From the IMG/VR virus record IMGVR_UViG_3300048833_000622, positions 1-31,934 of that record: a stretch of DNA of 31,934 nt; one strand, written 5' to 3'. Each line of letters starts with the position of its first letter. Position 1 is the stretch's first letter. The notes under the pieces were generated by a model. The model saw only the letters and a list, made by a program, of their open reading frames with translations. It searched no databases and had not been told where the DNA came from. Position numbers and translations under genes: made by a program. Positions 1,023 through 31,200 of the stretch are shown here, piece by piece. The DNA comes from a virus.

Positions 1023-1220
1023 TTAGTCCGCGCCCGGTGGCACGAGCTTGTTGAATCGGAGACCACGCTTTAGTTGAGAGGCGGCTGCCTTGGACGCTAG
1101 ATACTTGTCTGCAGCGATCTGTTCGGTGAGCTTATGCTGCTCGACGCTGCCGGCATCGCCCGATGCCTTCGCGGGTGCTTTCGCACTCTCGCGAATTGAG
1201 TCCCTCAGATCGTCTGGCAT
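1023..1220 (-). CDS. Small gpW-like head-tail joining protein
   Basis: This encodes 65 residues, charged and mostly helical, with a central KLTEQIAADKYLASKAAAS helix and a basic end (QLKRGLRFNKLVPPG). Size and position between large terminase and portal match lambda gpW, which closes the head and helps attach the tail. The family is inferred from synteny and size; sequence similarity to gpW itself is weak to my eye. GGACGGAA lies about 7 bases before the ATG as a ribosome site. Promoter-like element A ends about 36 bases upstream of the start, so this gene is probably the first of the head operon, separate from the terminase. Confidence 0.6.
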   Translation of the reverse strand: MPDDLRDSIRESAKAPAKASGDAGSVEQHKLTEQIAADKYLASKAAASQLKRGLRFNKLVPPGAD

Positions 1221-1226
1221 GAGAAG

Positions 1227-1312
1227 TTCCGTCCATTGTCAAAGGTAGCTGTGTCTCTCTACCCCTTGAACTACTCACGAAACATGCAAACTGGCGAAAA
1301 CGATGGACGGAA
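1227..1312. repeat. 10-bp inverted repeat flanking element A
   Basis: TTCCGTCCAT at 1227-1236 and its exact reverse complement ATGGACGGAA at 1303-1312 bracket the promoter-like element at 1257-1300. The left arm also carries the ribosome site of the gpW-like gene. It may be an operator pair, an RNA structure or chance. Confidence 0.4.
1257..1300 (-). promoter_or_regulatory. Promoter-like element A (TTTCGCCAGT-N12-TGAGTAGTTCAA)
   Basis: Read on the minus strand: TTTTCGCCAGT, a 12-base spacer TTGCATGTTTCG, TGAGTAGTTCAA, then GGGGTAGAG. It points at the gpW-like start, about 36 bases downstream. Three more copies occur in the window with identical spacing and always toward a gene (5906-5948, 18315-18357, 22211-22254). 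The sequence is not palindromic, which fits a directional promoter better than a dyad operator. Promoter activity is inference. Confidence 0.7.
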
Positions 1313-4103: not shown

Positions 4104-4105
4104 GT

Positions 4106-5905: not shown

Positions 5906-5948
5906 TTTCGCCAGTATGGCGTCGGCTTGAGTAGTTCAAAGATAGTGG
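5906..5948 (+). promoter_or_regulatory. Promoter-like element D
   Basis: TTTCGCCAGT (5906-5915), 12-base spacer, TGAGTAGTTCAA (5928-5939), then AGATAGTGG. It matches elements A, B and C with the same spacing. It lies just after the amidoligase terminator and points at the small-gene cluster starting at 6126. The leader is longer here (about 180 bases) than at the other copies and carries the palindrome at 5985-5998. Confidence 0.7.
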
Positions 5949-5984
5949 GCAATCGTCTTCGGCGTCGTCGCATATCGCGTTTTG

Positions 5985-5998
5985 TGCGACATGTCGCA
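5985..5998. promoter_or_regulatory. Operator-like palindrome TGCGACATGTCGCA
   Basis: A perfect 14-bp palindrome, 46 bases downstream of element D in the leader of the accessory cluster. The core GCGACATGTCGC recurs at 19209-19220 and, as the 10-bp core, at 19092-19101, both upstream of the sigma-like gene. A dimeric repressor site shared by the two units is likely; the binding protein is unknown. Confidence 0.6.
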
Positions 5999-6125: not shown

Positions 6126-6383
6126 ATGACCAACGCAAGCAACCCACACGCAGCGACCGACGCGACCCTTCGCCAAATCTTCAAGGCGATGGACGCCCAC
6201 CAAGCCCAAGAGATCCGCGAAGCCTACTACAAGGCGATCGAGGGACTGATGACCTTGGCTGAAACCCTCGAAGTCGCCGACGCACAACAAACCCCCAGCG
6301 CCGGCCCGCTTCTCACCGAACACTTCCACGCGGTCCAAGCGTTGGACGCCATGAAGAACAGCCGCCTCGGCAAGATCCTCTAA
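6126..6383 (+). CDS. Small helical protein of unknown function
   Basis: 85 residues, not recognised. It is largely helical and alanine-rich (QIFKAMDAHQAQEIREAYYKAIEGLMTLAETLEVADA), with a middle turn and the end HFHAVQALDAMKNSRLGKIL. There are no cysteines, membrane segments or catalytic motif. GGAGA lies about 9 bases before the ATG. It is the first gene after element D and the palindrome, so it leads the accessory cluster; the next gene follows by 30 bases. Codon use is typical of the neighbours and strongly coding-like. Intracellular; role unknown. Confidence 0.75.
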   Translation: MTNASNPHAATDATLRQIFKAMDAHQAQEIREAYYKAIEGLMTLAETLEVADAQQTPSAGPLLTEHFHAVQALDAMKNSRLGKIL

Positions 6384-6413
6384 ACCCAAGAACATAACGA
6401 AGGAGAAATCAAC

Positions 6414-6671
6414 ATGAAGCTCGACACCTTGATCGAAATCCTGAACGACTACCGCGAAGAGTTCGGAGGCGACGCGGAAGTGCGATTGATGACCCAGCAA
6501 AACTGGCCCTTTGAGAACCGTATCTGCGGTGTAACGAGCGGCCGCGACATGAACGAATCGGATGAGGACGATGACCAAGATGTCGCCGACGACCAAACGG
6601 TCTACATCGTCGAAGGGGGGCAAATCTGCTACGGCAGCAAGAGGGCTTGGGAAAACTACAAGGATAGCTGA
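6414..6671 (+). CDS. Small acidic protein of unknown function
   Basis: 85 residues with a strong ribosome site (GGAGA). The pattern LIEILNDYREEFGGDAEVRLMTQQNWPFEN, then a very acidic patch (ESDEDDDQD) and VYIVEGGQICYGSKRAWEN recalls small proteins of phages and plasmids with no assigned role. The acidic segment might mimic DNA or bind a basic partner, as some phage anti-defence proteins do, but nothing here proves that. It is second in the accessory cluster, 6 bases ahead of the next gene. Confidence 0.75.
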   Translation: MKLDTLIEILNDYREEFGGDAEVRLMTQQNWPFENRICGVTSGRDMNESDEDDDQDVADDQTVYIVEGGQICYGSKRAWENYKDS

Positions 6672-6677
6672 ACGCAA

Positions 6678-6917
6678 ATGTATATCGGACAACTTCATTT
6701 GGTAACCGACCTCGAAGACGGAGATCGGGCCTATCCAGAGGCGAACGTCTCGTACGAAATCGAATCGATTGACGACTCTTCGCTCAATACGACCGTCGCG
6801 TATGTCGAGCGACGAGGGAATCGGCTGATTGCAAGAGGATACAACGGACGGGATTACGCCGTCTCGGGCGTCGATGGTTACGAACTTTACGCGGTTCGAA
6901 AGCCGCCACAGCGATGA
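6678..6917 (+). CDS. Small protein of unknown function
   Basis: 79 residues, starting 6 bases after the previous stop, hence co-transcribed. It looks mostly beta-structured: MYIGQLHLVT, VSYEIESIDD, TVAYVERRGNRLIARGY and YAVSGVDGYELYAV. No family recognised. A terminator-like hairpin follows at 6939-6972, closing the three-gene unit. Confidence 0.65.
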   Translation: MYIGQLHLVTDLEDGDRAYPEANVSYEIESIDDSSLNTTVAYVERRGNRLIARGYNGRDYAVSGVDGYELYAVRKPPQR

Positions 6918-6938
6918 TGATTGCCCGCTTCGCGACAT

Positions 6939-6972
6939 CGCCCCACGTTTGCGACGTGAGGGCGTTCTTTTC
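6939..6972 (+). terminator. Probable terminator after the three-gene unit
   Basis: CGCCCCACGT (6939-6948) pairs with ACGTGAGGGCG (6954-6964) with one bulged base around a 5-base loop, followed by TTCTTTTCTC. It lies 21 bases after the 6917 stop. The remaining 190 bases up to 7163 are AT-richer and probably hold a promoter for the next unit, but no clear motif is seen. Confidence 0.6.
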
Positions 6973-7163
6973 TCGATTGGCGTCATTTCCCCCAGATGCA
7001 ATGCGATGCGACTGTGGCCAAACGGTTGCGACTGTGGGGCTCGGAAACATTCTTCAAAAAAGCATCGAACTACTTTTTGAATTGCCTTGCTGTTTATCAA
7101 CGTGCATGGCTCATGTGTGTATACGCCAAAACGAATTGATAACCCAAACGAAGAGATGCATAG

Positions 7164-7478
7164 ATGACCCACCACGACCTCGACCTGACGATCACCAAGA
7201 TCAGCCACCGAACCCCTGGGGCTGGAGGTTCTTGGGTCCAAGGGAAGATCAACAACGAATACCGATTCGATGCCCTGGTCTTCTCCGAGCACGCGGAATG
7301 CGAATCGTACGAATTGGGTCGGAGCAAGATTTCGAAGCTTTGTATCCAACGCTTTCCCGATCGCGCGGTGATGTTCAACTTCGACCGCGGGCTGGATGTC
7401 GCTGCGGTCAACACCGAGGTTCAGGTGGTGGTTGATTTTCTTTGCGAAGGACTCTCCGACTTGGTCTTTGGTCAATAA
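7164..7478 (+). CDS. Small protein, possibly DUF7678-like
   Basis: 104 residues. WVQGKINNEYRFDALVFSEHAE, GRSKISKLCIQ and FNFDRGLDVAA follow a pattern I associate with DUF7678 proteins of plasmids and phages (WxxGxI ... RISKLxI ... YDRGWD); this assignment is from memory. The biochemical role is unknown. It starts an apparent second transcription unit after the hairpin at 6939-6972. The ribosome site is weak (AAGAGA). No membrane or secretion signal. Confidence 0.7.
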   Translation: MTHHDLDLTITKISHRTPGAGGSWVQGKINNEYRFDALVFSEHAECESYELGRSKISKLCIQRFPDRAVMFNFDRGLDVAAVNTEVQVVVDFLCEGLSDLVFGQ

Positions 7479-7571
7479 GCCGAAACGCGGAGAGGATCCG
7501 CGTCGCCGATCGGTGGTTCGATCGGCCTGACGATGGCAGCCAACCACGAACATGAACACAAGGTGATCAAG

Positions 7572-8156
7572 ATGAAGAAGGCAGACGTAAAGATCGGCGG
7601 TAAGTATTTCGCGAATGTTTCCGGCAACCGATGTGAGATCCGAATCGATGCGGAGAAACCGCGTGGCGGATGGGATGCTACGAATCTGGCCACAGGCAAG
7701 AAGATTCTTATCAAAAGCGCACAGCGTCTTCAGGGGGAGGTGACGACGCGAGCCGGCCAAGCCAAGGTGACCACCGAGGGAAATGTCACCGTGGTCGAGA
7801 ATGAGCCGGCAACTGTCGAATCGTTCGGGGAGACTGCGACCAAGGTGGCCGTTCTGAAGAAGCCTAGTAAAGCCAAACCAGCTGCAACCGAATCGGCGGC
7901 GGCCGAATCGAAGACGAGTGGCAAAAAGCGAATGAGCTGCATCGAAGCGGCATTGAAGGTCCTCTCCGAATCGGCTGAACCCATGAACACGCAACAGATG
8001 ATTGCCGCTATGGAAGCGAAGGGGTACTGGACGAGCCCGGGAGGAAAAACTCCTCACGCGACCCTCTACAGCGTGATCCTTCGCGACTTGGCTAAAGGCG
8101 ATTCGAGCCGGTTTGTAAAGGCCGAGCGCGGACGCTTTACGGTTTCCAACAAATAA
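7572..8156 (+). CDS. HARE-HTH domain protein
   Basis: 194 residues from an ATG preceded by AAGGTGATC; an in-frame ATG at 7533 is less likely because it lacks a ribosome site. Residues 1-55 form a small beta domain (KIGGKYFANVSGNRCEIRIDAE), residues about 60-118 are a low-complexity Ala/Lys/Thr linker, and the last 75 residues form a winged HTH: SCIEAALKVLSESAEPMNTQQMI, then GYWTSPGGKTPHATLYSVI, then RFVKAERGRFTV. This is the HARE-HTH pattern also found in RNA polymerase delta, ASXL proteins and restriction-linked proteins, where it is proposed to sense DNA modification. Here it may be a regulator of the cluster. Confidence 0.82.
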   Translation: MKKADVKIGGKYFANVSGNRCEIRIDAEKPRGGWDATNLATGKKILIKSAQRLQGEVTTRAGQAKVTTEGNVTVVENEPATVESFGETATKVAVLKKPSKAKPAATESAAAESKTSGKKRMSCIEAALKVLSESAEPMNTQQMIAAMEAKGYWTSPGGKTPHATLYSVILRDLAKGDSSRFVKAERGRFTVSNK

Positions 8157-8174
8157 GCCGAAGGCGATGCAATC

Positions 8175-8393
8175 ATGCGAATTCGATTGAAGAGAGGCGA
8201 CCGCATACGGTTGGTCTCGATGCCTGATGATCCCGATCCAGTCCCGGTCGGGATGCTTGGAACCGTCAAGGAGTTTCATGAACATCGAGACTGGATGCAG
8301 GTTGAGGTCGATTGGGACAACGGTCGCTACCTGATGCTGACCCTTCCCGATGACTGCATTGAGATCATCGATTCCCATAACTCTGAATCGTAA
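8175..8393 (+). CDS. DUF4314 family protein
   Basis: 72 residues. MRIRLKRGDRIRLVSMPDDPDPVP, then GMLGTVKEFHE, then MQVEVDWDNGRYLMLTLPDDCIEII is the SH3-like DUF4314 pattern seen in phages and plasmids; no biochemical role is established. AAGG lies before the ATG. It is 18 bases after the HARE-HTH gene and 12 before the next, so one operon. Confidence 0.85.
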   Translation: MRIRLKRGDRIRLVSMPDDPDPVPVGMLGTVKEFHEHRDWMQVEVDWDNGRYLMLTLPDDCIEIIDSHNSES

Positions 8394-8405
8394 AGGGACC
8401 ACACC

Positions 8406-8726
8406 ATGTCGACGCGAGCAACGATCGCTCATGCACGCAGCGATGGGAGCTACCGCGCTACCTACCTGCATTTCGATGGATACCCGGAACATGCTGGGGT
8501 GATTCTCAACCAATGGTACAACTCCATCGAGAAGGCCTCGGCGTTGATCGCCGGAGGAGAACTGCGAAGTTTGAACTCGAGCGATGGGGCACCCGAGTAT
8601 TTCTCTCGGGCACAACCCCCAAAGCATCTTTGCGACCGGATGTCGCTCATGACGTTTGCACGTGGCTGCGATGCGAACTACCTTTATGTCTTCGAAGACG
8701 GGCATTGGCACTGCTACAAGCTTTAG
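8406..8726 (+). CDS. Conserved phage/plasmid small protein (MSTRATIA family)
   Basis: 106 residues beginning MSTRATIAHARSDGSYRATYLHFDGYPEHAGVIL. This N-terminus is widespread in phages and mobile elements without assigned function. AAGGGA before the ATG supports the start. The middle holds a helical segment (NSIEKASALIAGGELRSL) and the end an aromatic strand (NYLYVFEDGHWHCYKL). It is last in the plus-strand cluster and ends 2 bases before the end of the convergent methyltransferase; no terminator separates the two. Confidence 0.75.
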   Translation: MSTRATIAHARSDGSYRATYLHFDGYPEHAGVILNQWYNSIEKASALIAGGELRSLNSSDGAPEYFSRAQPPKHLCDRMSLMTFARGCDANYLYVFEDGHWHCYKL

Positions 8727-18029: not shown

Positions 18030-18269
18030 CTAGAGCAGCTCGAGTTCCTCAACCTCGAAGTTGCGTTCCTGATCGGAAGTGACCAAGTAATGCTTGAAGT
18101 CGATCTTGGTAACGAAGCGGCTTGGCTCAACCAGTTGGTCTCTCAGTCCCGTACACGCTTCGTTGAACTCCCTGGATGCTGCTTCGAAATGCTCAACAGC
18201 ACGCAGGTACCGTCCGACTGCACGGGAAATGTTGACACGGGTCTCGACATTGGTTGTGGATGCTGACAT
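18030..18269 (-). CDS. Small helical protein, first gene of the replication operon
   Basis: 79 residues from the ATG at 18269, preceded by GAAGAGA; the frame stays open to a GTG at 18290 through another ATG at 18281. Predicted helices: NISRAVGRYLRAVEHFEAASREFNEACTGLRDQL; then a beta segment RFVTKIDFKHYLVTSD and an acidic end (NFEVEELELL). No family recognised. It begins 20-45 bases after element B, which identifies it as the head of the operon that continues down to 8729. Confidence 0.65.
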   Translation of the reverse strand: MSASTTNVETRVNISRAVGRYLRAVEHFEAASREFNEACTGLRDQLVEPSRFVTKIDFKHYLVTSDQERNFEVEELELL

Positions 18270-18314
18270 GGATCTCTTCATTGCAGTCACTTGGGAACGG
18301 TGGGTTGATTTGCC

Positions 18315-18357
18315 CTCTACCTCTTGAACTACTCAGCAAAGTGGCAAACTGGCGAAA
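18315..18357 (-). promoter_or_regulatory. Promoter-like element B
   Basis: Minus strand: TTTCGCCAGT, 12-base spacer TTGCCACTTTGC, TGAGTAGTTCAA, then GAGGTAGAGGG. It lies between the end of the sigma-like gene (18373) and the first replication gene and points at the latter. It is closest to element A: the first spacer bases TTGC are also shared. Confidence 0.7.
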
Positions 18358-18372
18358 GACTTCGAAAACTTT

Positions 18373-18957
18373 TCAGGCGATGTACTCGCGAAGACCTTCG
18401 GCCTCGAATTGATCGGCGATCTGACGGATCCAACATCGAAGGGTCGACCTTGGGACGCCCATGAGCTCCGCCACCCGAGGTAGGGAGTGTGTTTTTCGCA
18501 ACTCAAGCATCTGTTGCCATTGTTCAGGCAGTCGTGAGATCGCTATGGCGAGATCGGAAGCCAAGTCTTTCAATTCATTGACCGACTTGCGGTTGAGCTG
18601 TAACCTGGCGTCACAGATCGACTCATCGAGCGTGTACTGCAAATCGACAGGAAGCTCACCGGGGACGGGTACGGGCACATTCAATGACTGGATTTGACTC
18701 TGGCCCTTGAACGGAGAAGCCCCGTCCCTGATCAGTGTGCTGGTTTGTCGTTCAACGACGGTGGTGACAAAAACGTTTCGGTGAGCGATCTGCGGGTCAA
18801 ATGAGGGTATGGCCTCGATGACCTTTGTTAGGAGAGCGTGTTCGATCGATTCTAGATCTTGCTCTGAAAAGCCGGCCCTCTTCACGATCTGCATTGCTTT
18901 GCGGCGAATGATGCCGCGGGTGAACTTGTCGTTGATAACATCAAATGACTGGGACAT
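18373..18957 (-). CDS. Sigma-70-family (ECF-like) RNA polymerase sigma factor
   Basis: 194 residues from the ATG at 18957, 9 bases after AAGGA; an ATG at 18966 is too close to that site. Region 2 is seen in FTRGIIRRKAMQIVKRAG, then DLESIEHALLTKVIEAIPSFDP and NVFVTTVVERQTSTLIRD. Region 4 is ISRLPEQWQQMLELRKTHSLPRVAELMGVPRSTLRCWI, an HTH ending near residue 185. The joining segment is Pro/Val-rich. Such factors direct RNA polymerase to special promoters. Being inside the element, next to element B, it is the natural candidate for reading elements A-D, but that is inference. Two palindromes lie upstream at 19092 and 19209, suggesting repression of this gene. Confidence 0.82.
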   Translation of the reverse strand: MSQSFDVINDKFTRGIIRRKAMQIVKRAGFSEQDLESIEHALLTKVIEAIPSFDPQIAHRNVFVTTVVERQTSTLIRDGASPFKGQSQIQSLNVPVPVPGELPVDLQYTLDESICDARLQLNRKSVNELKDLASDLAIAISRLPEQWQQMLELRKTHSLPRVAELMGVPRSTLRCWIRQIADQFEAEGLREYIA

Positions 18958-19091
18958 GCGTGCCATTCCTTGGCCGGCACACCAGCACAGCGTCCTAGCG
19001 ACAGACCGTCCCGAAGGGCTTGGAAGCGGTGCTGATCTGCTACGGCAAGGGAAACTTGTCGAAGCGTCGTTGGCCTGTCGCTCATGACTGA

Positions 19092-19101
19092 CGACATGTC
19101 G
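19092..19101. promoter_or_regulatory. Operator-like palindrome CGACATGTCG (copy 2)
   Basis: A perfect 10-bp palindrome 135 bases upstream of the sigma-like start, with the same core as 5985-5998 and 19209-19220. It lies in the 268-base gap between the sigma-like gene and the 350-aa gene. Confidence 0.55.
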
Positions 19102-19208: not shown

Positions 19209-19220
19209 GCGACATGTCGC
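19209..19220. promoter_or_regulatory. Operator-like palindrome GCGACATGTCGC (copy 3)
   Basis: A perfect 12-bp palindrome, identical to the core at 5986-5997 and 117 bases from copy 2 (close to 11 helical turns, so both could face the same side). It is 15 bases from the end of the 350-aa gene, within the upstream region of the sigma-like gene. Confidence 0.6.
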
Positions 19221-19234
19221 AGCGACAAGCCAGA

Positions 19235-20287
19235 TCAAGGTTCTGGATCGAGAGCAAAACGAGTCTGCCAACCGCAACGATCGGGCATCCAACGAATCGG
19301 ATCGTCGGAAATGCCGAAGAATTCACAAAGCGTTTCGCTAAGCCGTTCCTTACGTTTCTGGTTTTGACGGCTGGCACCAGGTGATGTCCAAGTCAACGTG
19401 CCATAGCTTTTCGCAAACGCTCGCAACAATTCCCATTGAACATTCGAGCGTTTGTTGCCAGTCCGGGAAAACCCCATCTCGGTAAAGTGGTAGCGACCAA
19501 CCACACCGTTGGCCGTAATGGAAACAGTATCAATATCCAGAAACCGAATTTTGATTGCTGACCAGGAACAATTTGGTGGAGTTGGGAATCCTGGCGCGGT
19601 GATTTTGGCTGATTGCTTCGGCAGAAACTGCTGCAGAAAAGATGTGATACCTTCCAGGGCCGGTTGGGTAAACGCAATCGCGTTCAACTCCGTTGGCTGA
19701 GTTACTTCGGCAAGAGACAGCAACAAACCGCGTCGTTCATTCAGCAGACGACCACAAAAGGAGTCGACCGGTTTGGTTCGCAAACGCAATACTACAAACG
19801 GCTGATTCGTTTGGTCGGCAATAGTAGTCAGAGCGTCTAACAATGGCCCTGACGCTAAGAACAAGGGAAACGCGAATCCCATTTGTGGATGCGCAGTCCC
19901 CCAATGCCAAACTGGCTTTATGCTGGCAGAGGTTGCCGATCGATGAAGACCATTTTGAGCGCAGAGCGATTCGGCCACTCGCACCCAATCGATACCAAAG
20001 ACCGTAACTTCAGCACGTTCAATGGATCGGCTAGTGTGGGATTCCTCATCGTAGATCAAATATCGACAAGGCTCATCTTCCGCAACTCGGAGCCATCGGC
20101 TCCTATCTCCCTGCCATGGAACCGCGCTGGCAATCTCCTGAGTTGGAACGAGCCACCGTCTGGCTTGTTCGAAATCAGTATCTAAGAGGATTCGCCAGTG
20201 CGCGAGCGACGTTCGCTGATCAGGCACCGAGGCTGCTGTGAGCCAAAGACGCTCCACCCAACTTGAATGGCACAATGATTTTGCCAT
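19235..20287 (-). CDS. Unknown protein with a probable C-terminal winged-helix domain
   Basis: 350 residues if the ATG at 20287 is used, which gives a 68-base overlap with the upstream gene. A GTG at 20227 would give 330 residues and an 8-base overlap, which is more usual. The N-terminal 230 residues are not recognised (EPCRYLIYDEESHTSRSIERAEVTVFGIDW; VVLRLRTKPVDSFCGRLLN). The C-terminal 100 residues (FLDIDTVSITANG, YHFTEMGF, VQWELLRAFAKSYGTLTW, then RKERLSETLCEFFGI) look like a winged helix with a basic loop, a pattern seen in planctomycete regulators; this is from memory. It is probably co-transcribed with the 404-aa gene. Confidence 0.75.
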   Translation of the reverse strand: MAKSLCHSSWVERLWLTAASVPDQRTSLAHWRILLDTDFEQARRWLVPTQEIASAVPWQGDRSRWLRVAEDEPCRYLIYDEESHTSRSIERAEVTVFGIDWVRVAESLCAQNGLHRSATSASIKPVWHWGTAHPQMGFAFPLFLASGPLLDALTTIADQTNQPFVVLRLRTKPVDSFCGRLLNERRGLLLSLAEVTQPTELNAIAFTQPALEGITSFLQQFLPKQSAKITAPGFPTPPNCSWSAIKIRFLDIDTVSITANGVVGRYHFTEMGFSRTGNKRSNVQWELLRAFAKSYGTLTWTSPGASRQNQKRKERLSETLCEFFGISDDPIRWMPDRCGWQTRFALDPEP

Positions 20288-21434
20288 TGGTAAATCCTCG
20301 ATCGTTCAGAAACCGCTCGATAATATCCGCATCACCATCGCGAGTGTAGACTGCGATATTCGGCGGCTTGATCGCTACCGATCGAGTTCTTCTTCCATCG
20401 ATGAACCGCAATTCAATCCTGGCTTCTGCGATTCGAACATCGATATCCAGGCTTTCGTAGTACGCGATCCGTTCATCGAGGATTTCGATCAAGTTATCTC
20501 GCTTCGTTGTTACTAGTTCCGGCTTCGCGCCCGCGATGAAGAGTGTCACTGATGTCAGAGTTGCTGAAAGCAGTTCAGGTACGTTGACCACGGACAACGC
20601 AGCCTCGCTGTACAGTCGCAGCGGTTCGGTTGTCCAGATGTCACCTGGCGGGAACAAATTTTCGTCACCGAAGAAGAACCTGCCAAACGAGGAACGATAC
20701 ATCTCCTTCTGAATTGCAGTTGCTGCATTGATTTTCAACTCGCCGGTCAGTCGATTGAACTGCAGCAAGTCTTCATGCAATGGCTGAAAACTCAAGATGT
20801 CGCGGACACCGTCGACCAAAACATCTTGTAATTGCCAAGGCCGACCATGGCTAACCGTGAGATCGAGGGAATCGTCGCTCAGTTGCACCGCCGCAACAGT
20901 ACCTCGGCCGCATTTTTTCGATTCAAAGTACGATCCAACGGCACTCTCAAACGCAACGCGATAGAGTTCCAGCGGCTCTTGCAAGCTTGGCACAAAGTCA
21001 CTGTTAGCTTGGAAGTACGAGTATGTACGCCGAGTCGTTAGCGACTGCAGGCGATGAATCGTCTCAACATGGTCACGATGCCGTAGGATTGCTTCAACCG
21101 CTACATCGGCAGGCATGATTTTTTCGTCACTGTGAAAGGCTTCAGCTAACTCGTCGATCTGGTGGAGCAGGGTCTCCATCATCGATTCGCGAGCCAACTC
21201 ATTAACCATGTGTACCGCGCGCATCAATTCCGCGGGTGTTTGACCATCAGGAGCTCTGAGGATCTGACCCAGGAGCTCGAACTGGGAATCGGTTAGTTTC
21301 CCTCCTTTGGGAAGTGTTAGGCCTCGTGAAGCAATATATTCGTTGTGGGGCGAGAGAAACTTCAATAACCGATCGTGTTGGACGGATTTCAGCACTCGCA
21401 AGTTAGTAAATCGTTGGTACTTGGCTGTGGTCAT
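20220..21434 (-). CDS. Unknown 404-residue protein
   Basis: Not recognised. The first 150 residues are helical and charged (RFTNLRVLKSVQHDRLLKFL; LMRAVHMVNELARESMMETLLHQIDELAEAFHSDEK; EAILRHRDHVETIHRLQSL). The middle shows beta segments (VAAVQLSDDSLDLTVSHGRPWQLQDVLVDGVRD) and an aromatic stretch (RSSFGRFFFGDENLFPPGD). The C-terminal third has a Val/Ile-rich core and a small domain with VYTRDGDADIIERFLNDRGFTNGKIIVPF. There is no ATPase, nuclease or membrane motif. The start has a weak ribosome site. It lies downstream of the XRE regulator across a large inverted repeat, and overlaps the 350-aa gene, suggesting that the two proteins form a complex. Confidence 0.75.
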   Translation of the reverse strand: MTTAKYQRFTNLRVLKSVQHDRLLKFLSPHNEYIASRGLTLPKGGKLTDSQFELLGQILRAPDGQTPAELMRAVHMVNELARESMMETLLHQIDELAEAFHSDEKIMPADVAVEAILRHRDHVETIHRLQSLTTRRTYSYFQANSDFVPSLQEPLELYRVAFESAVGSYFESKKCGRGTVAAVQLSDDSLDLTVSHGRPWQLQDVLVDGVRDILSFQPLHEDLLQFNRLTGELKINAATAIQKEMYRSSFGRFFFGDENLFPPGDIWTTEPLRLYSEAALSVVNVPELLSATLTSVTLFIAGAKPELVTTKRDNLIEILDERIAYYESLDIDVRIAEARIELRFIDGRRTRSVAIKPPNIAVYTRDGDADIIERFLNDRGFTNGKIIVPFKLGGASLAHSSLGA

Positions 21435-21655: not shown

Positions 21656-22084
21656 TTACGATGTGACACGACTGGTCAGCATCTTCCAAAAACTTTCCAT
21701 TTCCTCGGGAGTTGCATCCTCGCAATTTACCCTCACGAGATTCTGTCCATCTTTGGGTTCCACCTTTTCACGCAATCCAGAACTCGACTCGGATGAGTAG
21801 ACCCAATTCTCTGAATCGCAGAGAGAGAACGTTTCAGGTAGCCTAAACGTGGGGCATTTCTCCGTGAGCAAGTCATCGACATCGCAACCCAGGAAATCGG
21901 CGATGTCATAGACCACATCTCGGCCAACCTCGCTATATTCGCCGCGTTCGATTCTTCTCCAATCTTCCTGCAAATTAGACTCACGAACACAATCGTCTAG
22001 CCTGTACCTTGCGATCTCGCGGAACTTTCGAACCTTAGCGCGATCGAGTTTAGGTGCATTGTCAGTTGTTGAGGCTTTAGCCAT
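21656..22084 (-). CDS. XRE-type HTH regulator, candidate repressor
   Basis: 142 residues from the ATG at 22084, preceded by GGAGAG; the frame continues to an ATG at 22204, which would add 40 hydrophobic residues of unclear value. KVRKFREIARYRLDDCVRESNLQEDWRRIERGEYSEVGRDVVYDIADFLGCDVDDLL is a lambda-repressor-like HTH (about residues 17-73). The C-terminal half is acidic and not recognised (no peptidase Ser/Lys dyad seen). It is divergent from the integration cassette with element C in between, the classical place for a lysogeny repressor. It may bind the GCGACATGTCGC palindromes; that is a guess. Confidence 0.7.
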   Translation of the reverse strand: MAKASTTDNAPKLDRAKVRKFREIARYRLDDCVRESNLQEDWRRIERGEYSEVGRDVVYDIADFLGCDVDDLLTEKCPTFRLPETFSLCDSENWVYSSESSSGLREKVEPKDGQNLVRVNCEDATPEEMESFWKMLTSRVTS

Positions 22085-22210
22085 TTCGGAACTCTCCAAG
22101 TGAATGGTGACGGGAACAAAAACGCCAATCTTCAGCACAGCTTTGACTCCTCTGGTCACAACGCTTTTCGAAATCCAAAGATCTCCGTTTTCCGGAATTT
22201 TCATGCGTGT

Positions 22211-22254
22211 CGTTGCCAGTTCCTGCTTGAGCTGAGTAGTTCAAGGGGTAGAGG
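22211..22254 (+). promoter_or_regulatory. Promoter-like element C
   Basis: TTGCCAGT (22213-22220), 12-base spacer, TGAGTAGTTCAA (22233-22244), then GGGGTAGAGG. One base of the first box differs from the other copies (TTGCC for TCGCC). It points at the integration cassette; the first ATG is 43 bases downstream. Confidence 0.7.
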
Positions 22255-22541: not shown

Positions 22542-23030
22542 ATGAACATCGATCGGGAAGTCGCACTCATGAAGCTCATGAGCGTGGGTGAGCTTCGCAA
22601 GAAATATTGCGAGGTATTCAAAGAGCCAACCAACGCACGGAACAAAGTCTGGCTCATCAAGCGTATCGCTTGGCGTATGCAGGCGAACATCGAGGGAGAT
22701 CTCTCGGAGCGAGCGCGGCGGCGGGCCATGGAGATTGCAAACGACGCGGACATACGCATGATGCCACCACGCGAACGAAAGCCGCGAGAGTTCGTCCAGC
22801 AGCCGAATACGGTTGTGGTGAATGTTGATTCAAAGCCGACGCGTAGTCTATCGGTAGGTCAGTCCCTCCAGCGGGTCTACAAGGGCCAAAACATTGTTGT
22901 GGTCGTCCGAGGCGATGGCTTTGAATGGCAAGGGCAGAAGTATAAGTCTCTGACCGCCGTTACCAAAGCCGTGACAGGTAAGCACTGGAACGGATTCAAC
23001 TTCTTTCGCGTGGACGGAGACAATGCCTGA
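22542..23030 (+). CDS. DUF2924 family protein
   Basis: 162 residues. MSVGELRKKYCEVFKEPTNARNKVWLIKRIAWRMQA is the helical N-terminal half; the C-terminal half has GQSLQRVYKGQNIVVVVRGDGFEWQGQKYKSLTAVTKAVTGKHWNGFNFF, the DUF2924 signature. It is regularly found immediately before large serine recombinases in mobile elements and probably assists DNA binding or recombination; no biochemical function is established. Its stop overlaps the recombinase start (TGATG). Confidence 0.88.
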   Translation: MNIDREVALMKLMSVGELRKKYCEVFKEPTNARNKVWLIKRIAWRMQANIEGDLSERARRRAMEIANDADIRMMPPRERKPREFVQQPNTVVVNVDSKPTRSLSVGQSLQRVYKGQNIVVVVRGDGFEWQGQKYKSLTAVTKAVTGKHWNGFNFFRVDGDNA

Positions 23031-24589
23031 TGTCAAACAAACACAATGGCAAGCCCGAGGCGAGGAAGCCATTTCGATGTGCGATTTACACTCGTAAATC
23101 GACGGAAGAGGGACTGGAGCAAGAGTTCAATTCATTGGATGCGCAGCGCGAAGCCGGCGAGCTCTACGTCAAGAGCCAGAAGCATGAAGGCTGGGAATGC
23201 ATTGAGACCAAGTACGATGACGGAGGATTCACCGGTGCGAATATGGATCGCCCCGGTCTTCGAAAGTTACTGGCTGACATCGCAGCCGGCAAAATTGACT
23301 GCGTAGTAGTCTATAAGGTCGACCGTCTCAGTCGAAGCTTGCTAGATTTCGCGAAAATCATCGAGGTCTTCGATCGCCATCAGGTCACTTTTGTCAGCGT
23401 GACCCAGTCCTTTAACACGGCATCGTCCATGGGCCGGCTCACCCTCAACGTGCTTCTATCCTTCGCCCAATTCGAGCGAGATATGATCAGCGAACGGACT
23501 CGAGACAAAATGCGAGCAGCTCGTCGCAAGGGGCGTTGGATCGGAGGCAAACCAATCCTCGGCTACAACGTCGTCAACACGAAGCTGGTCGTTGATCCTG
23601 TCGAGTCGCTACGAGTTCAAGAGATTTTCAGATTGTACTTGGAAATGAAATCAACCCTGCAGGTTGCTCGGGTGTTGAACCAGCGTGGTTGGCGAATCAA
23701 AGAGTGGACCACCAAGAAGGGTAGAACGATAGGTGGCGGCGAGTTCAACAAGAACAAAGTCACTGCCGTCCTGACCAACGCAACGTACATCGGCATGATC
23801 GAGTACGAAGGCCAACTCCATCCTGGCCTTCAAGAAGCGATCATCAAGCGAGACGAATTCGACCGGGTTCAGGAGACCCTAAAGCAGAATAGCCGCATGA
23901 AGAAAGACCTCATGCGATGCAAACACAATGCTTTGCTTCAGGGACTGCTTCGCTGCGCTGCCTGCAATTGTGGGATGAGCCATTCGTACACAAAGAAAGG
24001 CTCGACTCTTTATCGCTACTACGTGTGTCACAAGGCTCAAAAGCAAGGCTGGGCAAGTTGCCCATCTCCATCGTTGCCTGCCGCTGAGATCGAGGGTTTC
24101 GTAGTCGACCAGATCCGCAGCGTTGGTCAAGACCCGGGTGTTGTTCGCGATACGTTGGCCCAGAGTCGCGTTCAAACCCAGACGACTGTAGAACGACTCA
24201 AGAAAGAAAAAAACTCGCTGGAGCGGGCAATCCTCGGTCACTACGAACGAATGAACCAAGCGATCGCCGACGAAGCGGATGAAACGGCGTTTGCAGACAT
24301 CCAGGATCAGATTCGCGAGAAGGAACAACGAGTATCCGAGGTCGTTGATGAGATGACCTCGGTATCCAGCCTGATGATCGATGAGTCGGATGTCCGCGAT
24401 GCGCTGGGGCGATTCGATGAAGTTTGGACAGCATTGTCGCCCGCTGAGAAAGCCAGAGCCCTCCATCAGATCGTCGATTCGGTTCAGTACGACGGCCACA
24501 ATAAAGAGCTGTCTATCTCCTACCACCCGATCGGAATCAGAACATTCAGCCAAGAACAACGAAATAAAGAGGGAGCCGCCACATGCTGA
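23030..24589 (+). CDS. Large serine recombinase / integrase
   Basis: 519 residues. The resolvase catalytic domain (about 15-165) has IYTRKSTEEG with nucleophile S24, VVYKVDRLSRS and FAQFERDMISERTRDKM. The Recombinase domain (about 175-290) contains GYN, LRVQEIFRLYLEM and TNATYIGMI. A zinc ribbon (RCAACNCGMSH, YYVCHKAQ, CPSPSLPA; about 305-355) and a coiled coil (about 385-440, VERLKKEKNSLERAILGHYERMNQAI) follow. Such enzymes integrate phages site-specifically via a covalent serine-DNA intermediate. The gene is in a four-gene cassette driven by element C. The position suggests an attachment site nearby, but none could be located without the empty site. Confidence 0.95.
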   Translation: MSNKHNGKPEARKPFRCAIYTRKSTEEGLEQEFNSLDAQREAGELYVKSQKHEGWECIETKYDDGGFTGANMDRPGLRKLLADIAAGKIDCVVVYKVDRLSRSLLDFAKIIEVFDRHQVTFVSVTQSFNTASSMGRLTLNVLLSFAQFERDMISERTRDKMRAARRKGRWIGGKPILGYNVVNTKLVVDPVESLRVQEIFRLYLEMKSTLQVARVLNQRGWRIKEWTTKKGRTIGGGEFNKNKVTAVLTNATYIGMIEYEGQLHPGLQEAIIKRDEFDRVQETLKQNSRMKKDLMRCKHNALLQGLLRCAACNCGMSHSYTKKGSTLYRYYVCHKAQKQGWASCPSPSLPAAEIEGFVVDQIRSVGQDPGVVRDTLAQSRVQTQTTVERLKKEKNSLERAILGHYERMNQAIADEADETAFADIQDQIREKEQRVSEVVDEMTSVSSLMIDESDVRDALGRFDEVWTALSPAEKARALHQIVDSVQYDGHNKELSISYHPIGIRTFSQEQRNKEGAATC

Positions 24590-25292: not shown

Positions 25293-26669
25293 ATGATGCC
25301 ACCCCCAAAAAACAGCGTAGCACCCCAAGAACAAAAGCCATTTCGCCCTATCCAGTACCTTGGGAGTAAGCTCCGCCTACTGTCGCAAATACACGATTTA
25401 GTGAGTCGCTTTGCTGTGGAAGGCGATGATGTTTGCGATCTGTTTTGCGGTTCTGGAGTTGTCTCGCAGTATCTCTCCAGTCACTACCGTATTACAGCTT
25501 GTGACATTCAGAATTACTCTGCCACAATAACGAAGGCGATTTTGCATCGAAGCGAGATGCGATCCGACGATGTCGATAAATTTGCTAATCGAATAGCTTC
25601 TGGTGAAGCACTTAAACGACTACAAGCTGAATACGCTCCACTCATCAATCACGAAATTTCATGCATTCAGCAAGCTCAAGAAGGAAAACCCGAGTCCCTG
25701 CTCATTTTTTCGGAGTATGCTTCCGAGTACATGTACCATAATTCGCCAGCGACACTGGACATTCCAGCGGCTATTCAGCAATCGCTAGCCTCAGTAGCGG
25801 AGAACCGAAGACTAAACCAACGCGCGCGGCCTCCCCTCGTATCTTTTTATTACGGAGGCGCATATTTCTCGTTTGCACAAACAGTTGTTCTAGATGCGAT
25901 TCTTGAGACTATTAACGCGATCAAATCGCCGACAAATCAAAAAACGATCTTGCTGGCGGCATTGCTTAGTACTGCAAGCTCGATAGTGAATACTGTTGGC
26001 AAGCAGTTTGCCCAACCAATGAAGCTCCGGACTCGCGCTGGAACACCTAAAGCGCTTTTGGTGGAGCGAACGATTCGCGACCGATCATACGACGTGCTGG
26101 ACATGTACACTCGCATTCTTCATGAATACCTTGCTGCAGGACCGCTTGCTAATCGCGAACATTCAGTTGAATGCTGTGACTTCAGGGAAATACTTGCCAG
26201 GCGAAAAAAACCATTTGCGTGTATTTACGCGGACCCGCCATACACCATCGATCATTACAGTCGATTCTACCATGTTCTTGAAACGATTTGTTTGCAAGAT
26301 TACCCAGAGCTTGACAGCATGAGACGGAACGGACAAACGAGAATAATGCGTGGCTTGTACCGCTCAGGTAGACATCAATCGCCTTTTTGCATTCCATCAG
26401 AGGTCGAAGGCGCGTTTCGCAGTTTACTCGAGAATGCTGCAAGGCTCACGTCCCCTCTCGTATTGTCATACTCGCCATTCAATCCAGGAAACAACGATCG
26501 GCCGAGACTATTGACTCTCGAGGGTATTACTGAGTTGGGGAGGCAATTTTACCCTAGGGTAACGGTAGTAGATGCGGCTCCTCACTCTCATCGCAAGCTC
26601 CACTCGACAAACAAGAACCAGGATGCAATCAGCAACGCAGAGACATTTGTTGTGTGTTCCATGGACTAA
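25293..26669 (+). CDS. D12-class (Dam-like) adenine-N6 DNA methyltransferase 1
   Basis: 458 residues (or 457 from the next codon, also ATG). QYLGSKLRLLSQI near residue 21 and DLFCGSGVVSQYL at about 49-61 form the AdoMet site; the catalytic YADPPYTIDHYSRFYH is at about 312-327. The large middle is helical and probably holds target recognition. Long for the family (Dam is about 280), as expected for restriction-linked D12 enzymes. It is followed 8 bases later by a second enzyme of the same class, suggesting one for each strand of an asymmetric site. It would protect self DNA from the nuclease encoded convergently at 28033-31200. Confidence 0.88.
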   Translation: MMPPPKNSVAPQEQKPFRPIQYLGSKLRLLSQIHDLVSRFAVEGDDVCDLFCGSGVVSQYLSSHYRITACDIQNYSATITKAILHRSEMRSDDVDKFANRIASGEALKRLQAEYAPLINHEISCIQQAQEGKPESLLIFSEYASEYMYHNSPATLDIPAAIQQSLASVAENRRLNQRARPPLVSFYYGGAYFSFAQTVVLDAILETINAIKSPTNQKTILLAALLSTASSIVNTVGKQFAQPMKLRTRAGTPKALLVERTIRDRSYDVLDMYTRILHEYLAAGPLANREHSVECCDFREILARRKKPFACIYADPPYTIDHYSRFYHVLETICLQDYPELDSMRRNGQTRIMRGLYRSGRHQSPFCIPSEVEGAFRSLLENAARLTSPLVLSYSPFNPGNNDRPRLLTLEGITELGRQFYPRVTVVDAAPHSHRKLHSTNKNQDAISNAETFVVCSMD

Positions 26670-26677
26670 GGAAATGT

Positions 26678-28036
26678 ATGGAAAAGTATCTCGGAAACAA
26701 GCGTGTCCTCGTTGAATCGTTAGGGGCGTTCGTTGATGCTAATTGCCCCGAAGCAAAGTCAATTCTCGACATATTCGCCGGAACGACGAATGTAGGAAGG
26801 TACTTTCGAAAACGGGGCTTCTCCGTTACGTCGAACGATATAAATCGATTTAGCTTTATACTAGGCTCCACTTATCTTGCTCTTCGGAAATACCCGGTAT
26901 TTGAGGGACTTTCTGACGTGCCTTCGCCAACGCCAGAGCATTCGAGTCGTCTTGAAAAAGCGTTTTCGAGTGCGGCCGCCAGAGATAAAAGCCAGTTTTT
27001 CCCACTCGATCGACTGGAAAGCGTCTGGTCATCCTTCTTGGACTCTAGGGCAGTCGATGTTATCGCTTACTTGAACAGTTTCACTTCGAGTTCGAAAAGC
27101 AGTACTTCCTACATCACGGATTATTTCACTCAATTCGGGAGGCACTCCACTTTCAAGAGCGTTCGCGGTTCTGTTGGCAAGCGAAACTACTTTTCAGAAG
27201 AAAATGCGAGAAAGCTAGACGCCATCTTGGGTTGTGTACGAGACTGGTGGCAGGAAGGAAGGTTAACAACTGATGAAGTGAATTTCGTGATGACATCAAT
27301 CATTGAAGAAGTTACGCTCATTGCAAACGTAAACGGTACGTTTCATGACTTCAATCGAAATCGCTTATGGCCCAATTCGTTGCAAGAGCTGTTTTTGAAG
27401 GTACCACTTTCGTTTGTAAAAAATGTGCGGTGCAGAGTACATTGTGCAGACGCTGTCGATCTCGCTCGCACGCTTCCACCTCACGACATTCTCTACATCG
27501 ATCCCCCATATAACTTCCGGCAATATTCAGCATATTATCATTTCTTGAACTTTATTGCGGCCTATCCCTTCCTTCAGTCTGTCGACGAATATCTGGCGGA
27601 ACTCGATTTCGTGAGGGGGCAGAATGCGCATGACGATTTCACAAGTGATTTTTGTTTTCGAGATCGATTTATTGACGCCCTCCGATCGCTAATTCGAAAC
27701 TCCGCATGTCACTATGTCGTAATGAGCTACTATGGTGGTCGCAATCATTGGAACCACTGGTCCAAAGGCGACACCCACAAAGACATTGGTTTTGAGATTT
27801 TGAGCGAGGTATTCAACGAATCTGAGTTTTTCTGTCGAAGCAAGAGCTTGTCAGCAACACAGGTCCGTCAGAATTACCAAAGCCGTAATGGAGAGCAAAA
27901 GCGAATGATCGATGAGTACTTCTTTTTCGGAGAACGCAATGGAAGAACATTCCATCGAGACTCGCTTCCCGCTAAGGAGCTACCGCTATCGCCGCAGAAC
28001 ACAAGACTTGCTCTGTGGCATTTTCGTGGCACCTAA
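26678..28036 (+). CDS. D12-class adenine-N6 DNA methyltransferase 2
   Basis: 452 residues from the ATG at 26678 (AAGGAA upstream; a GTG at 26654 would overlap the first gene). EKYLGNKRVLVESL at the start, ILDIFAGTTNVGRYF at about 30-44, catalytic LYIDPPYNFRQYSAYYHFLN at about 272-291. Motif order and flanks match the first methyltransferase, yet the two differ strongly elsewhere, so they are not a recent duplication. The gene ends with a 4-base overlap with the convergent nuclease gene. Confidence 0.88.
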   Translation: MEKYLGNKRVLVESLGAFVDANCPEAKSILDIFAGTTNVGRYFRKRGFSVTSNDINRFSFILGSTYLALRKYPVFEGLSDVPSPTPEHSSRLEKAFSSAAARDKSQFFPLDRLESVWSSFLDSRAVDVIAYLNSFTSSSKSSTSYITDYFTQFGRHSTFKSVRGSVGKRNYFSEENARKLDAILGCVRDWWQEGRLTTDEVNFVMTSIIEEVTLIANVNGTFHDFNRNRLWPNSLQELFLKVPLSFVKNVRCRVHCADAVDLARTLPPHDILYIDPPYNFRQYSAYYHFLNFIAAYPFLQSVDEYLAELDFVRGQNAHDDFTSDFCFRDRFIDALRSLIRNSACHYVVMSYYGGRNHWNHWSKGDTHKDIGFEILSEVFNESEFFCRSKSLSATQVRQNYQSRNGEQKRMIDEYFFFGERNGRTFHRDSLPAKELPLSPQNTRLALWHFRGT

Positions 28037-29373
28037 ACCGTAGAAATCGTCGATTGCTGTTTCTCTGCTAGTATCACTATTTGGTCAGCAAGATCCATCA
28101 GTTTTGTACCGTGCGAGTAAGCGCGGATGATCATGTCAGGATTCAGAGTGAACACGTAGATCTTCTCAAATGCTGGATCTGGTGTATCGTTGCTGGTGAG
28201 CATTGAAACATGACCAATACAATCCACTGTAGTTGTTCGCGGATCGGGAAAGAGTAACCCGTTGATTATCGACTTACCTTCCTTTGAAAAGCTGGCAACA
28301 TAGAACAGTTGCTTTACAAGATCTCCCCATCCACAAAGCGACTCAGGTAAGGGATAGTAATACTTAGCATCTAGTATAAGCGTTTTGTCCTTTTTCTCCG
28401 CAAGTAAGTCAGGTCTTTGCTTTCCGCCGGCTAATGTGAGCGCGGAAGAGAAGGGGGGCGAGTAAAAGCTCCATTGAGGCTGGGACAGCTTGTCCTTCAG
28501 CTGTTCATTTTGGTTCTGTATTACATACGAACAAGCAGTTTCCCAGATTGCATGAAATCGATTTGTCCCAAATACCTTTAGCAACGATGCGCCTCTAAGT
28601 GGGGCATCTTCTTCGAGGAATGATAGGATTCCATTTAGCAACTGGATATCATCAGAATAAAACGTACGCGACAGTTCCGTGCGAACGTGTCGCGCCATCA
28701 CCTGATGATTAGCTAGCAAGTCGGCTATCGGGATTATCTCGATCTTGTCGGCTATCGCGTTCCTGATTGACTGCTCCATAGGCGTTCTGTACTTGTCATT
28801 GAGGTGTACCAATATGGAGCCGTGGAGCCGTGTTACAATATTTGCCTGTTCCTGAATCGCAACGCTGATGGGTGATGCATATAGACACGACCCATTGGTA
28901 TGGATTGGAGTTTTAGAGGCGATAGTTTTTGGCCAATGGACTTTCTCGTGGCTGTCGTGTTTGTCGAAATGCACTTGGCATGTATACAAACCCTCCATGA
29001 TAAAGCGTCGGTGCAGTGAGGCATATAGCTCGTACTCCCGCTGCGGTGCTTTGCTTTGAAGCCTAAGCTCTTGAATTGTGTCGGGCGTGACGGCTCTTTG
29101 CAGGGGCTGATCTTCCCAGTATCGTCGAAGCGAATTCGCTACTGCTTGAAAGCGATTAACCGCTGTCTCGTCGCCGATACTGTATTTAGGCAGGAAGACA
29201 CAATACTGAGTACTGGAAATGAAGCAACCGACGAGCCTTGCAACCAGGTCCCCATTCGGGGCAGGTACGATAGCACCAGCCTCAATTAGACGAGCGAACT
29301 CACTGTCACTTATTTTTAGTTTTTCGAGCCACGAAACCTTTTTTCGGGACTCCGTTTCGTAACAGATTATCAT
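28033..29373 (-). CDS. LlaJI-type restriction endonuclease subunit (McrC-like)
   Basis: 446 residues. The nuclease core shows HAIWETACSYVIQ (E278), then KQRPDLLAEKKDKTLILDAKYYYP with PD at 321-322 and D335-x-K337, a PD-(D/E)XK arrangement matching the LlaJI R2/McrC nucleases. The N-terminal half (MIICYETESRKKVSWLEKL) should dock onto the motor and DNA. The motor gene lies 6 bases upstream. In this family the nuclease is inactive without the AAA+ GTPase partner. Family identity is by pattern and by the four-gene context; McrC proper is the alternative. Confidence 0.8.
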   Translation of the reverse strand: MIICYETESRKKVSWLEKLKISDSEFARLIEAGAIVPAPNGDLVARLVGCFISSTQYCVFLPKYSIGDETAVNRFQAVANSLRRYWEDQPLQRAVTPDTIQELRLQSKAPQREYELYASLHRRFIMEGLYTCQVHFDKHDSHEKVHWPKTIASKTPIHTNGSCLYASPISVAIQEQANIVTRLHGSILVHLNDKYRTPMEQSIRNAIADKIEIIPIADLLANHQVMARHVRTELSRTFYSDDIQLLNGILSFLEEDAPLRGASLLKVFGTNRFHAIWETACSYVIQNQNEQLKDKLSQPQWSFYSPPFSSALTLAGGKQRPDLLAEKKDKTLILDAKYYYPLPESLCGWGDLVKQLFYVASFSKEGKSIINGLLFPDPRTTTVDCIGHVSMLTSNDTPDPAFEKIYVFTLNPDMIIRAYSHGTKLMDLADQIVILAEKQQSTISTV

Positions 29374-29379
29374 GCTCTA

Positions 29380-31200
29380 TCAGTCTGCTGATAAGTCGTT
29401 TGCGATACCTAATGGATCACCTTTACCATTATCCCAACTCTCTTGCACGTGCGAGAAGCTATCGAAGTCCATCAGCTCCTTCTGCTGGAACCGTAATACA
29501 TCTTCCCATAGATATAGCAAAAGCTTATTCAGAATCTTTGCTGGATCGCTCATTTCTTGAACGGTAAGAAAATATGGCCCAATAAGTTTGTCTTCGTGGA
29601 TTGCCAGCGTGCTAAGTTTTCGGTTGACTAGCTCCCGAAACGAATCCCAATTGTGCTTTGTACCGGCATAGACGATCTGTGCAGCATCAGACGGATACTC
29701 ACAGGGAGTACGGTGTCCACGATACTCAAATTCCCAGCGTCGCCTGAATGCCGAGTCGATAGGTCGCACTCCTTGATCAGCCGAGTTCATCGTTGCCCAA
29801 ATGTAAAGATTTGCTGGCAGCCGAACCGTATCTCTGAGCAGCGGAGTCCCCAGGGAAGCGAGAAAGTTCCGAAGGTCAGGCGACGGCTCAATGCTATAGG
29901 TGCTCGTTCCGTCGCTATTTCGATCTAGAAGCTGAAACATGTCTCCAAATACAGCACCGCAGTTTGCACGATTAATTTCTTCAATGATGAGAATGACATT
30001 GTGGCCAGGATTCAGCGTCGCCTTAATTGTTGCTTCTAGCAGCGGACCGCAAAGGAAGCGGTAGTCGATGACTGGACGCCCAGCTATGAACGGTGAGCCG
30101 GTTAGATCAAATAACTCCGAACTGACTTTCTCGTACACCGGCGATGGTTTATAGGTTCCGACGAAATCAAAGTATGAGGTTTCTTGATGAAATGTGGTGC
30201 GAATTATGTGCGGTGCGGGATCTGTCTTCTTCGCCTCACCATCCAGATATCTGCTCTTGCCTGAACCGGGACAGCCGCAAATTATCCATTGTCGTGGATA
30301 CGGGAGCGGTGGACTTGAGACGCCGTCTGGCAACAAAAACCTTTCCATTCTGTTACGCGCTTTCTTTGCGATTCGATTGACAATCTGAAGACGTGAATTT
30401 AGGCGAGGAAAGTCCTGCCCCATTTCATCGCGTAGTGCGAGATAGCTTTTGACACAGGGTTGAACTCGATACCGAATATCCGCTTGAATAGTGTTTTTGG
30501 CTCGAGGCCTCACATAAACGTAAAGCATTTTGCCGATTGGATCAGTGGGCTCGTTTGCCGGGAATGACTCAACTAGGTTGTCCCATGCGCTTCGAGCCTC
30601 ATTTTCTTCAACAGAATCCAATCGAAAAAAACGGCCAACTTCAAATCCTGTCGAGTGAATCAGCTGCAGAAACAAAAGAAAATCGAGGTCATCCGCAATG
30701 GCGTTTCGGCGTCCCTCGGGGATGTTGTCGATCAGAAGCTGCAGGTTATGTAGTAGTCCTCGAAAAAATGATAATGACTTTGACTCGCCCTCAGGAGTCT
30801 CGCAAAGCTTTTCTACGAGTTCTCGAAAAATGATCTTCTCGAACTCAACGATATCGCTTGAACGATTTGTATACCGTAAGTCTTCCGGGGCGAGGGATTT
30901 GGCGTCAAGAAACGCAGCTAGCTTAAGCCCGGTTTGGGTCAAGGCTAAGGGGGCTTCTTGAATGACACCAAGATTCAATAATGTATTACTGTATCGCTCA
31001 ATAGAGCGGTCGTTTGAAACTGGCAAGCTGCCGGAGCTTCTGATCGCCAGAATTTGTGCAGCAAGTTGCTTCACGTTCTTTAACTCTGACGAGTAGAACG
31101 AGCAATGAAGTGTTTGCAGATTCCCATGATTATTGGTATCCGGTGACAGATCCAAGAAGCGTAGAAACAAGAGGCCTTGTTGATTCGTTGGCCATGTCAT
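29380..31200 (-). CDS. McrB/LlaJI-type AAA+ restriction motor
   Basis: 606 residues from the ATG at 31200, with AAGGGACG upstream; an ATG at 31245 lacks a ribosome site. The first 300 residues (NSTLLNLGVIQE; KIIFRELVEKLCETPEG) are a DNA-recognition region. The AAA+ core has Walker A GCPGSGKSRYL (about 309-319), Walker B VILIIEEINRANCG (about 402-415) and WATMNSADQGVRPIDSAFRRRWEF (about 468-491), the McrB-specific MNxxD and arginine-finger pattern. McrB-type motors use GTP, load on target DNA and drive the nuclease. It is the first gene of the restriction unit, opposite to the two methyltransferases. Confidence 0.9.
   Translation of the reverse strand: MTWPTNQQGLLFLRFLDLSPDTNNHGNLQTLHCSFYSSELKNVKQLAAQILAIRSSGSLPVSNDRSIERYSNTLLNLGVIQEAPLALTQTGLKLAAFLDAKSLAPEDLRYTNRSSDIVEFEKIIFRELVEKLCETPEGESKSLSFFRGLLHNLQLLIDNIPEGRRNAIADDLDFLLFLQLIHSTGFEVGRFFRLDSVEENEARSAWDNLVESFPANEPTDPIGKMLYVYVRPRAKNTIQADIRYRVQPCVKSYLALRDEMGQDFPRLNSRLQIVNRIAKKARNRMERFLLPDGVSSPPLPYPRQWIICGCPGSGKSRYLDGEAKKTDPAPHIIRTTFHQETSYFDFVGTYKPSPVYEKVSSELFDLTGSPFIAGRPVIDYRFLCGPLLEATIKATLNPGHNVILIIEEINRANCGAVFGDMFQLLDRNSDGTSTYSIEPSPDLRNFLASLGTPLLRDTVRLPANLYIWATMNSADQGVRPIDSAFRRRWEFEYRGHRTPCEYPSDAAQIVYAGTKHNWDSFRELVNRKLSTLAIHEDKLIGPYFLTVQEMSDPAKILNKLLLYLWEDVLRFQQKELMDFDSFSHVQESWDNGKGDPLGIANDLSAD

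Follow-up and report, generated by a model that had tools for sequence, protein, structure and literature searches.

The window, by which we mean the whole stretch of DNA analysed, is a linear IMG/VR virus record of 31,934 bases from a virus of Planctomycetes bacteria. On its minus strand (18373..18966) lies the gene of an element-encoded, ECF-like sigma factor of class A (the four classes are described below), recognised as a sigma factor from its open reading frame, the NCBIfam model TIGR02937, PHROG 1740, and an AlphaFold2 model searched with Foldseek. The protein has 197 aa when counted from the first ATG, and the 194 aa given in the preliminary description, which was made from sequence alone, corresponds to a second ATG at 18957. 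The same description had placed a sigma-70-like gene between palindromes upstream and a promoter-like element downstream, and this arrangement is confirmed.

Four sites, A to D, share one geometry, GCCA-N15-GAGTAGTTCAA, with GCCAGT and GAGTAGTTCAA common to all and a gap of exactly equal length, and every site points into the operon downstream of it. We treat them as putative promoters, A, B and C being of class A. Site A (1256..1296, minus strand) lies between terminase and the head operon, whose first gene is gpW-like (1023..1220, minus strand) and is followed by a portal gene running off the window. Site B (18314..18354, minus strand), with the sequence CGCCA-N15-GAGTAGTTCAAGAGGTAGAGG, is ~20 nt 3' of the sigma stop codon and upstream of the replication operon, which opens with p86 (18030..18290, minus strand) and continues with p74, a PDDEXK nuclease, a RecA-like ATPase, a RusA-like protein and a primase. 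Site C (22214..22254, plus strand) precedes a small ORF and the integration genes, those of a DUF2924 protein and a large serine recombinase (22542..24589, plus strand). Site D (5909..5949, plus strand; CGCCAGTATGGCGTCGGCTTGAGTAGTTCAAAGATAG) precedes a plus-strand operon of p85 and other small genes (6126..8726); it is kept in G004, and a diverged copy is present in L009. With up to 3 mismatches, the core GTAGTTCAAGNGGTAGAG occurs 3 times in the window against 0.03 expected from shuffles. When site B is the query, A and C match at 26-27 of 29 positions and D at 20, the best shuffle reaching 19.

Upstream of the sigma gene are two copies of the palindrome CGACATGTCG (19092..19101 and 19210..19219), candidate operators whose function is inferred. 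The pair, ~118 bp apart, is kept in the class A relatives L005, G004 and G007 and is absent from L218, a class C swap; another copy lies downstream of site D (5987..5996). A Cro/C1-type HTH protein with a weak HTH_26 match is encoded divergently from site C (21656..22204, minus strand) and is a candidate repressor. Control of the sigma gene through the palindromes and this HTH regulator is possible and is inferred only. In many family members the region directly upstream of sigma encodes two conserved proteins, which in the window have 404 aa (20220-21434) and 350 aa (19235-20287) and lie on the minus strand. Neither p404 nor p350 could be assigned to a family, and a role for them in regulating sigma is conceivable.

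Some other genes of the window are recorded here as side observations. After the integration module, 25293-31245 holds two Dam-like methyltransferases and a McrB/McrC-like pair, named by reading their translations, which are likely to be defence cargo; in G389a a type I restriction-like set has a similar role. Between terminase and p68 (3867-4501, plus strand) is a small gene pair resembling an antitoxin and a PIN-type toxin. In L006 (7121-8905) and in the ATPase ORF of G004, the RecA-like ATPase gene is broken by an intein-like insert (AQPLDAKVLTPNGFVPMADISVGDAVIGANG).

The sigma protein

The preliminary description had stated that sigma regions 2 and 4 are visible. This holds through TIGR02937 and a family profile, while Pfam finds the region 4 or C-terminal HTH alone and below cut-off (Sigma70_r4_2, E=0.02; HTH_23, 3e-5). 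TIGR02937 (sigma70-ECF) spans residues 20-182 with E=5e-6, again below the model cut-off (26.2 bits against 42.9), and two relatives, L066 (45.4 bits) and L071 (45.8 bits), pass that cut-off. The sole PHROG match of the window protein at E<=0.01 is PHROG 1740, RNA polymerase sigma factor (E=6e-5); at the same threshold there is no match to the ArpU/RinA-type late activator models. When the profile of the 37-member family is compared with solved structures, region 2 aligns with RpoE, FliA and SigH, and region 4 with RpoS and SigE (PDB profile 127-184 to SigE).

The AlphaFold2 model has two helical domains (residues 14-82 and 129-189) joined by a low-confidence linker, with a pLDDT of 78, a pTM of 0.41 and an undefined packing of the domains. 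Foldseek ranks sigma factors highest for this model, led by the ECF factor SigE, a SigH chimera and AlgU, and these matches extend along almost the whole protein; the undefined packing keeps the global TM-scores low. In its domain layout the window protein agrees with an ECF factor, with a region 2 (predicted to bind core and the -10 element), a region 4 HTH (predicted for the -35 element), and two linked domains without regions 1.1 or 3 in only 197 aa.

Relatives in Planctomycetota and their sites

No relative came out of an initial scan of genome contigs with the sigma alignment; loci were obtained by scanning with the DNA pattern. A profile search places sigma relatives in 32 of 392 planctomycete genomes, while INPHARED contains no relative of the window sigma at E<=0.01. 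Across ~85,000 species the box pattern has 4 matches, all in Planctomycetota. Among the 22 viral matches to the pattern, many are without the class A extension and resemble chance occurrences. The preliminary description had spoken of an unusual planctomycete case, and this has to be corrected: the family is widespread in the phylum and is not confined to one unusual phage.

In part of this diverged family a site of the same geometry can be recognised near the sigma stop codon. Of the 27 non-redundant members, 11 have the pattern G[ACT]CA-N15-G[ACG]GT[AT] there, where 0.22 would be expected; with other spacers from 8 to 24 it occurs in 0 or 1 members, and on the reverse strand with spacer 15 in none. 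Because this pattern was defined after looking at the data, we give more weight to the spacer scan and to a test of motifs shared within each element. In this test the stretch after sigma is compared with the stretches before the element's own gpW and DUF2924/recombinase genes, and the best shared 42-mer is set against 100 shuffles. All 100 shuffles are beaten (p<=0.01) in the window, G004, L005, G005, G032, G389a, G389b, G389c, G228, G180 and G332; G007 (p=0.02) and G365 (p=0.07) follow, and the shared 42-mer is not significant in G396, G394, G360, G019, G160, G042 and others. A separate scan gives three related sites in G394, and distant members such as G299, G017 and G042 have no convincing site.

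Since the shared sequence varies between elements, the sites are private versions, and these versions recur upstream of gpW/portal or DUF2924/recombinase. Homologues of gpW downstream of a site are also present in G389a, G032, G228 and many IMG/VR contigs. The single 6.96 Mb contig of G389 holds three prophage-like elements; their sigma genes also number three, and two of these are almost the same.

Four classes and two natural swaps

Four groups of sigma sequences can be separated, and each has its own group's promoter downstream: GCCA and GAGTAGTTCAAGGGGTAG in class A, GTCA and GGGTATTCCTACAGATAG in class B, GTCC and GTGTAACCCTACAGATAG in class C, and GACG and GCATAGTTAGTACTGGAG in class D, in every case with N15 between. 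Sigma identity within a class is at least 59% (A), 66% (B), 51% (C) and 49% (D), against 16-36% between classes. The remote L275, labelled A solely by a chance match with 6 mismatches, was left out of this comparison, and the sigmas L264, L265 and L269 fall outside all four classes. Class D sigma ORFs overlap with their promoter at the 3' end. Class B sites occur in 42 IMG/VR contigs and, where the neighbours are recognisable, at gpW/portal or DUF2924/recombinase. All promoter classes also have a second conserved box (GGTAG, GATAG or AGTAG) ~12 nt beyond the -10-like box on its 3' side, close to where transcription is expected to begin.

The separation of the classes is not absolute, because some phages have tandem promoters of two classes. 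Class B and class A promoters precede gpW in L206 (4193 and 3990, minus strand), and class B and C promoters do so in L182 (1099 and 1272, plus strand) and in L202 (1815 and 1642, minus strand), whose record encodes a class B sigma (L225). Such tandems may be intermediates of class switching or operons that respond to both classes.

Two elements provide natural swaps. In the contig IMGVR_UViG_3300042521_004430 (L218, L220), 7,474 bp of replication genes match L005 at 92.5% identity, and 1,447 bp of the head region match L009 at 88.6%. The sigma of this contig is of class C, and the promoters after sigma and at the head operon are both of class C. The MAG prophage G003 (L121) has an integration module that matches the window at 84.9% identity along 2,423 bp. 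The promoter there is of class B, and the sigma fragment of the prophage agrees with a class B sigma at 100% of 105 aa. In both swaps the promoter goes with the sigma and not with the adjacent gene, as the comparison shows, and we count the two swaps as decisive for the reading below, on comparative grounds and without biochemistry.

Proposed mechanism

In the reading that we favour, the sigma factor would bind the host core RNA polymerase, and the resulting holoenzyme would read private promoters made of a -35-like GCCA, 15 nt, and a -10-like GAGTAGTTCAA. Once made, the factor would turn on the head, replication and integration operons and the fourth, small-gene operon together. What is shown by comparison is the protein family, the sites, their fixed geometry and positions, and that their divergence and swapping are coupled to the sigma gene. 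Polymerase binding, initiation and transcription are inferred. With this division, and in the absence of RNA or biochemical data, we consider it very likely, as one joint claim, that the gene product is a phage ECF-type sigma factor and that it reads private promoters.

The preliminary description had claimed a private promoter class and a single factor for head, replication and integration genes. The former is supported by co-divergence, the fixed spacer, a promoter class for each sigma class and the two concerted swaps. The latter is supported in that the sites target these operons across diverged phages, with no evidence from transcription.

Tandem arrays without a sigma gene

Four planctomycete MAG loci have the class A box and no sigma nearby, and their alignment revealed tandem promoters of different classes. 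The full array has the order B, C, A, D with steps of ~114, 113 and 92 bp, and most of the ten arrays scanned have all or nearly all of it. The best example is the candidate satellite of G717 (G717:C96 13667-20160; L212/L213), with four well-preserved sites, followed by an intact 886-aa primase, an 83-aa protein, DUF2924, an intact serine recombinase and p133, and ending near 20,160; no sigma, terminase or portal was detected in it. Further candidates with the four-class array are L248, L249, L251, L215 and L214, and G847, G849, G913 and G777 follow the plan of G717 with different primases and some broken genes. These satellite-like elements are ~6.5 kb, and neither sigma nor structural genes were detected in them. 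G717 and its relatives, and not the window, have the satellite make-up of an integrase and a replication gene without structural genes. The recombinases of five candidate satellites form one clade (100/100) apart from those of phages.

No empty site was found for the G717 satellite, where only the right flank (an HNH gene) is conserved, and neither attachment sites nor a packaging site of the satellite-like elements were found. A 'tail' after promoter A in the arrays, which follows terminase in some phages, was considered as a packaging site and rejected, because it is also present at the 3' end of class D sigma genes.

We regard the arrays as probably belonging to candidate satellites that listen for several helper sigmas, the helper's factor serving as the induction signal; mobilisation and packaging by the helper are inferred. 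The preliminary description had held that related elements with the boxes but without the gene would refute its proposal, and taken literally such elements exist. They do not refute private promoters, because the best reading of them is as satellites, pieces of decayed prophages or contig fragments.

Alternative explanations

The protein could instead be a sigma-like late activator, as are ArpU, RinA and Ogr, which binds both boxes and recruits the host sigma holoenzyme. In favour of this, only the C-terminal HTH comes near significance in Pfam, one relative has a weak match to a PHROG late activator, and the co-divergence of protein and site would look identical. We consider it unlikely, however, given ECF profile matches over the full length, including region 2, that are above cut-off in two relatives, the alignment of region 2 to the solved RpoE, FliA and SigH, and the sigma factors at the top of the Foldseek list. 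The two boxes with a fixed 15-nt gap are also as for -35 and -10 elements, although adjacent host -35/-10 elements are not excluded. It is less likely still that the boxes are signals for packaging, recombination or replication, or tRNA-like remnants. Sites do lie near terminase and recombinase, and box 2 resembles the GTAGTTCAATGGTAGA of tRNA-Gly D-arms; but the sites are oriented into the downstream operon, and their sequence tracks the sigma class and not the neighbouring gene. A D-arm origin of box 2 was rejected, as no tRNA was found and the pattern is confined to Planctomycetota.

For the arrays a different concern remains, namely that they are relics accumulated in decaying prophages without any sensing of helpers. 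Several are decayed or lie beside broken genes (G777, G001, G003), dual promoters are also present in ordinary phages (L206, L182/L202), and the lack of an empty site fits as well, so this explanation stays possible. Against it stand an order and spacing that stay the same (B-114-C-113-A-92-D) across several genomes, the good preservation of sites, primase and recombinase in G717, the separate recombinase clade, and the retention of array and integration module where the primase differs from one element to the next.

Relation to known systems

T4 gp55 and SPO1 gp28 are phage sigma factors with a private promoter class, and such factors have been described chiefly in lytic phages that infect a small number of model hosts. 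The window sigma is like them as a phage-encoded factor that gives the host polymerase, here by inference, a private promoter class; unlike them it is ECF-like and belongs to a temperate planctomycete phage. Neither gp55 nor gp28 is known to have a promoter at the 3' end of its gene or to swap classes between backbones. With ECF sigma factors (TIGR02937, and the Rhodopirellula/Verrucomicrobium subfamily TIGR02989) it shares regions 2 and 4 only and two-box promoters, but it is phage-borne, no cognate anti-sigma was identified, and its relatives are far below the TIGR02989 cut-off. Bacillota phages encode sporulation-type sigma factors, described as altering host dormancy (PMC9429907); these are phage-borne too, whereas the planctomycete sites are inferred to drive the element's own operons.

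Late promoters of satellite P4 use Ogr of the helper P2. The arrays would likewise answer a helper transcription factor, which is inferred, but they consist of four separate tandem promoters, each for another phage sigma class. PICI-type satellites are small integrated elements with an integrase and a primase and without structural genes, as are the G717-type elements; the latter differ in their large serine recombinase with DUF2924 and their sigma-class promoter array, their packaging being inferred. In the open-access literature searched, with most subscription journals outside its scope, there is no report of a planctomycete phage sigma or of helper sigma factors inducing satellites.

A bolder reading is that these phages fall into transcription classes with a swappable set of sigma and promoters, and that the B-C-A-D array of the satellites answers four helper sigmas, any of which, though unrelated, would switch on the satellite's primase and integrase operon. 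We lean towards this reading by a narrow margin. Orthogonal sigma/promoter pairs would help in Planctomycetota, where genetic tools are scarce, and dozens of natural pairs would show how specificity is determined by regions 2 and 4. With the satellite arrays it would become possible to test how a single parasite recognises helper phages of several kinds, and the temperate phages of a whole phylum seem to use exchangeable sets of sigma and promoters.
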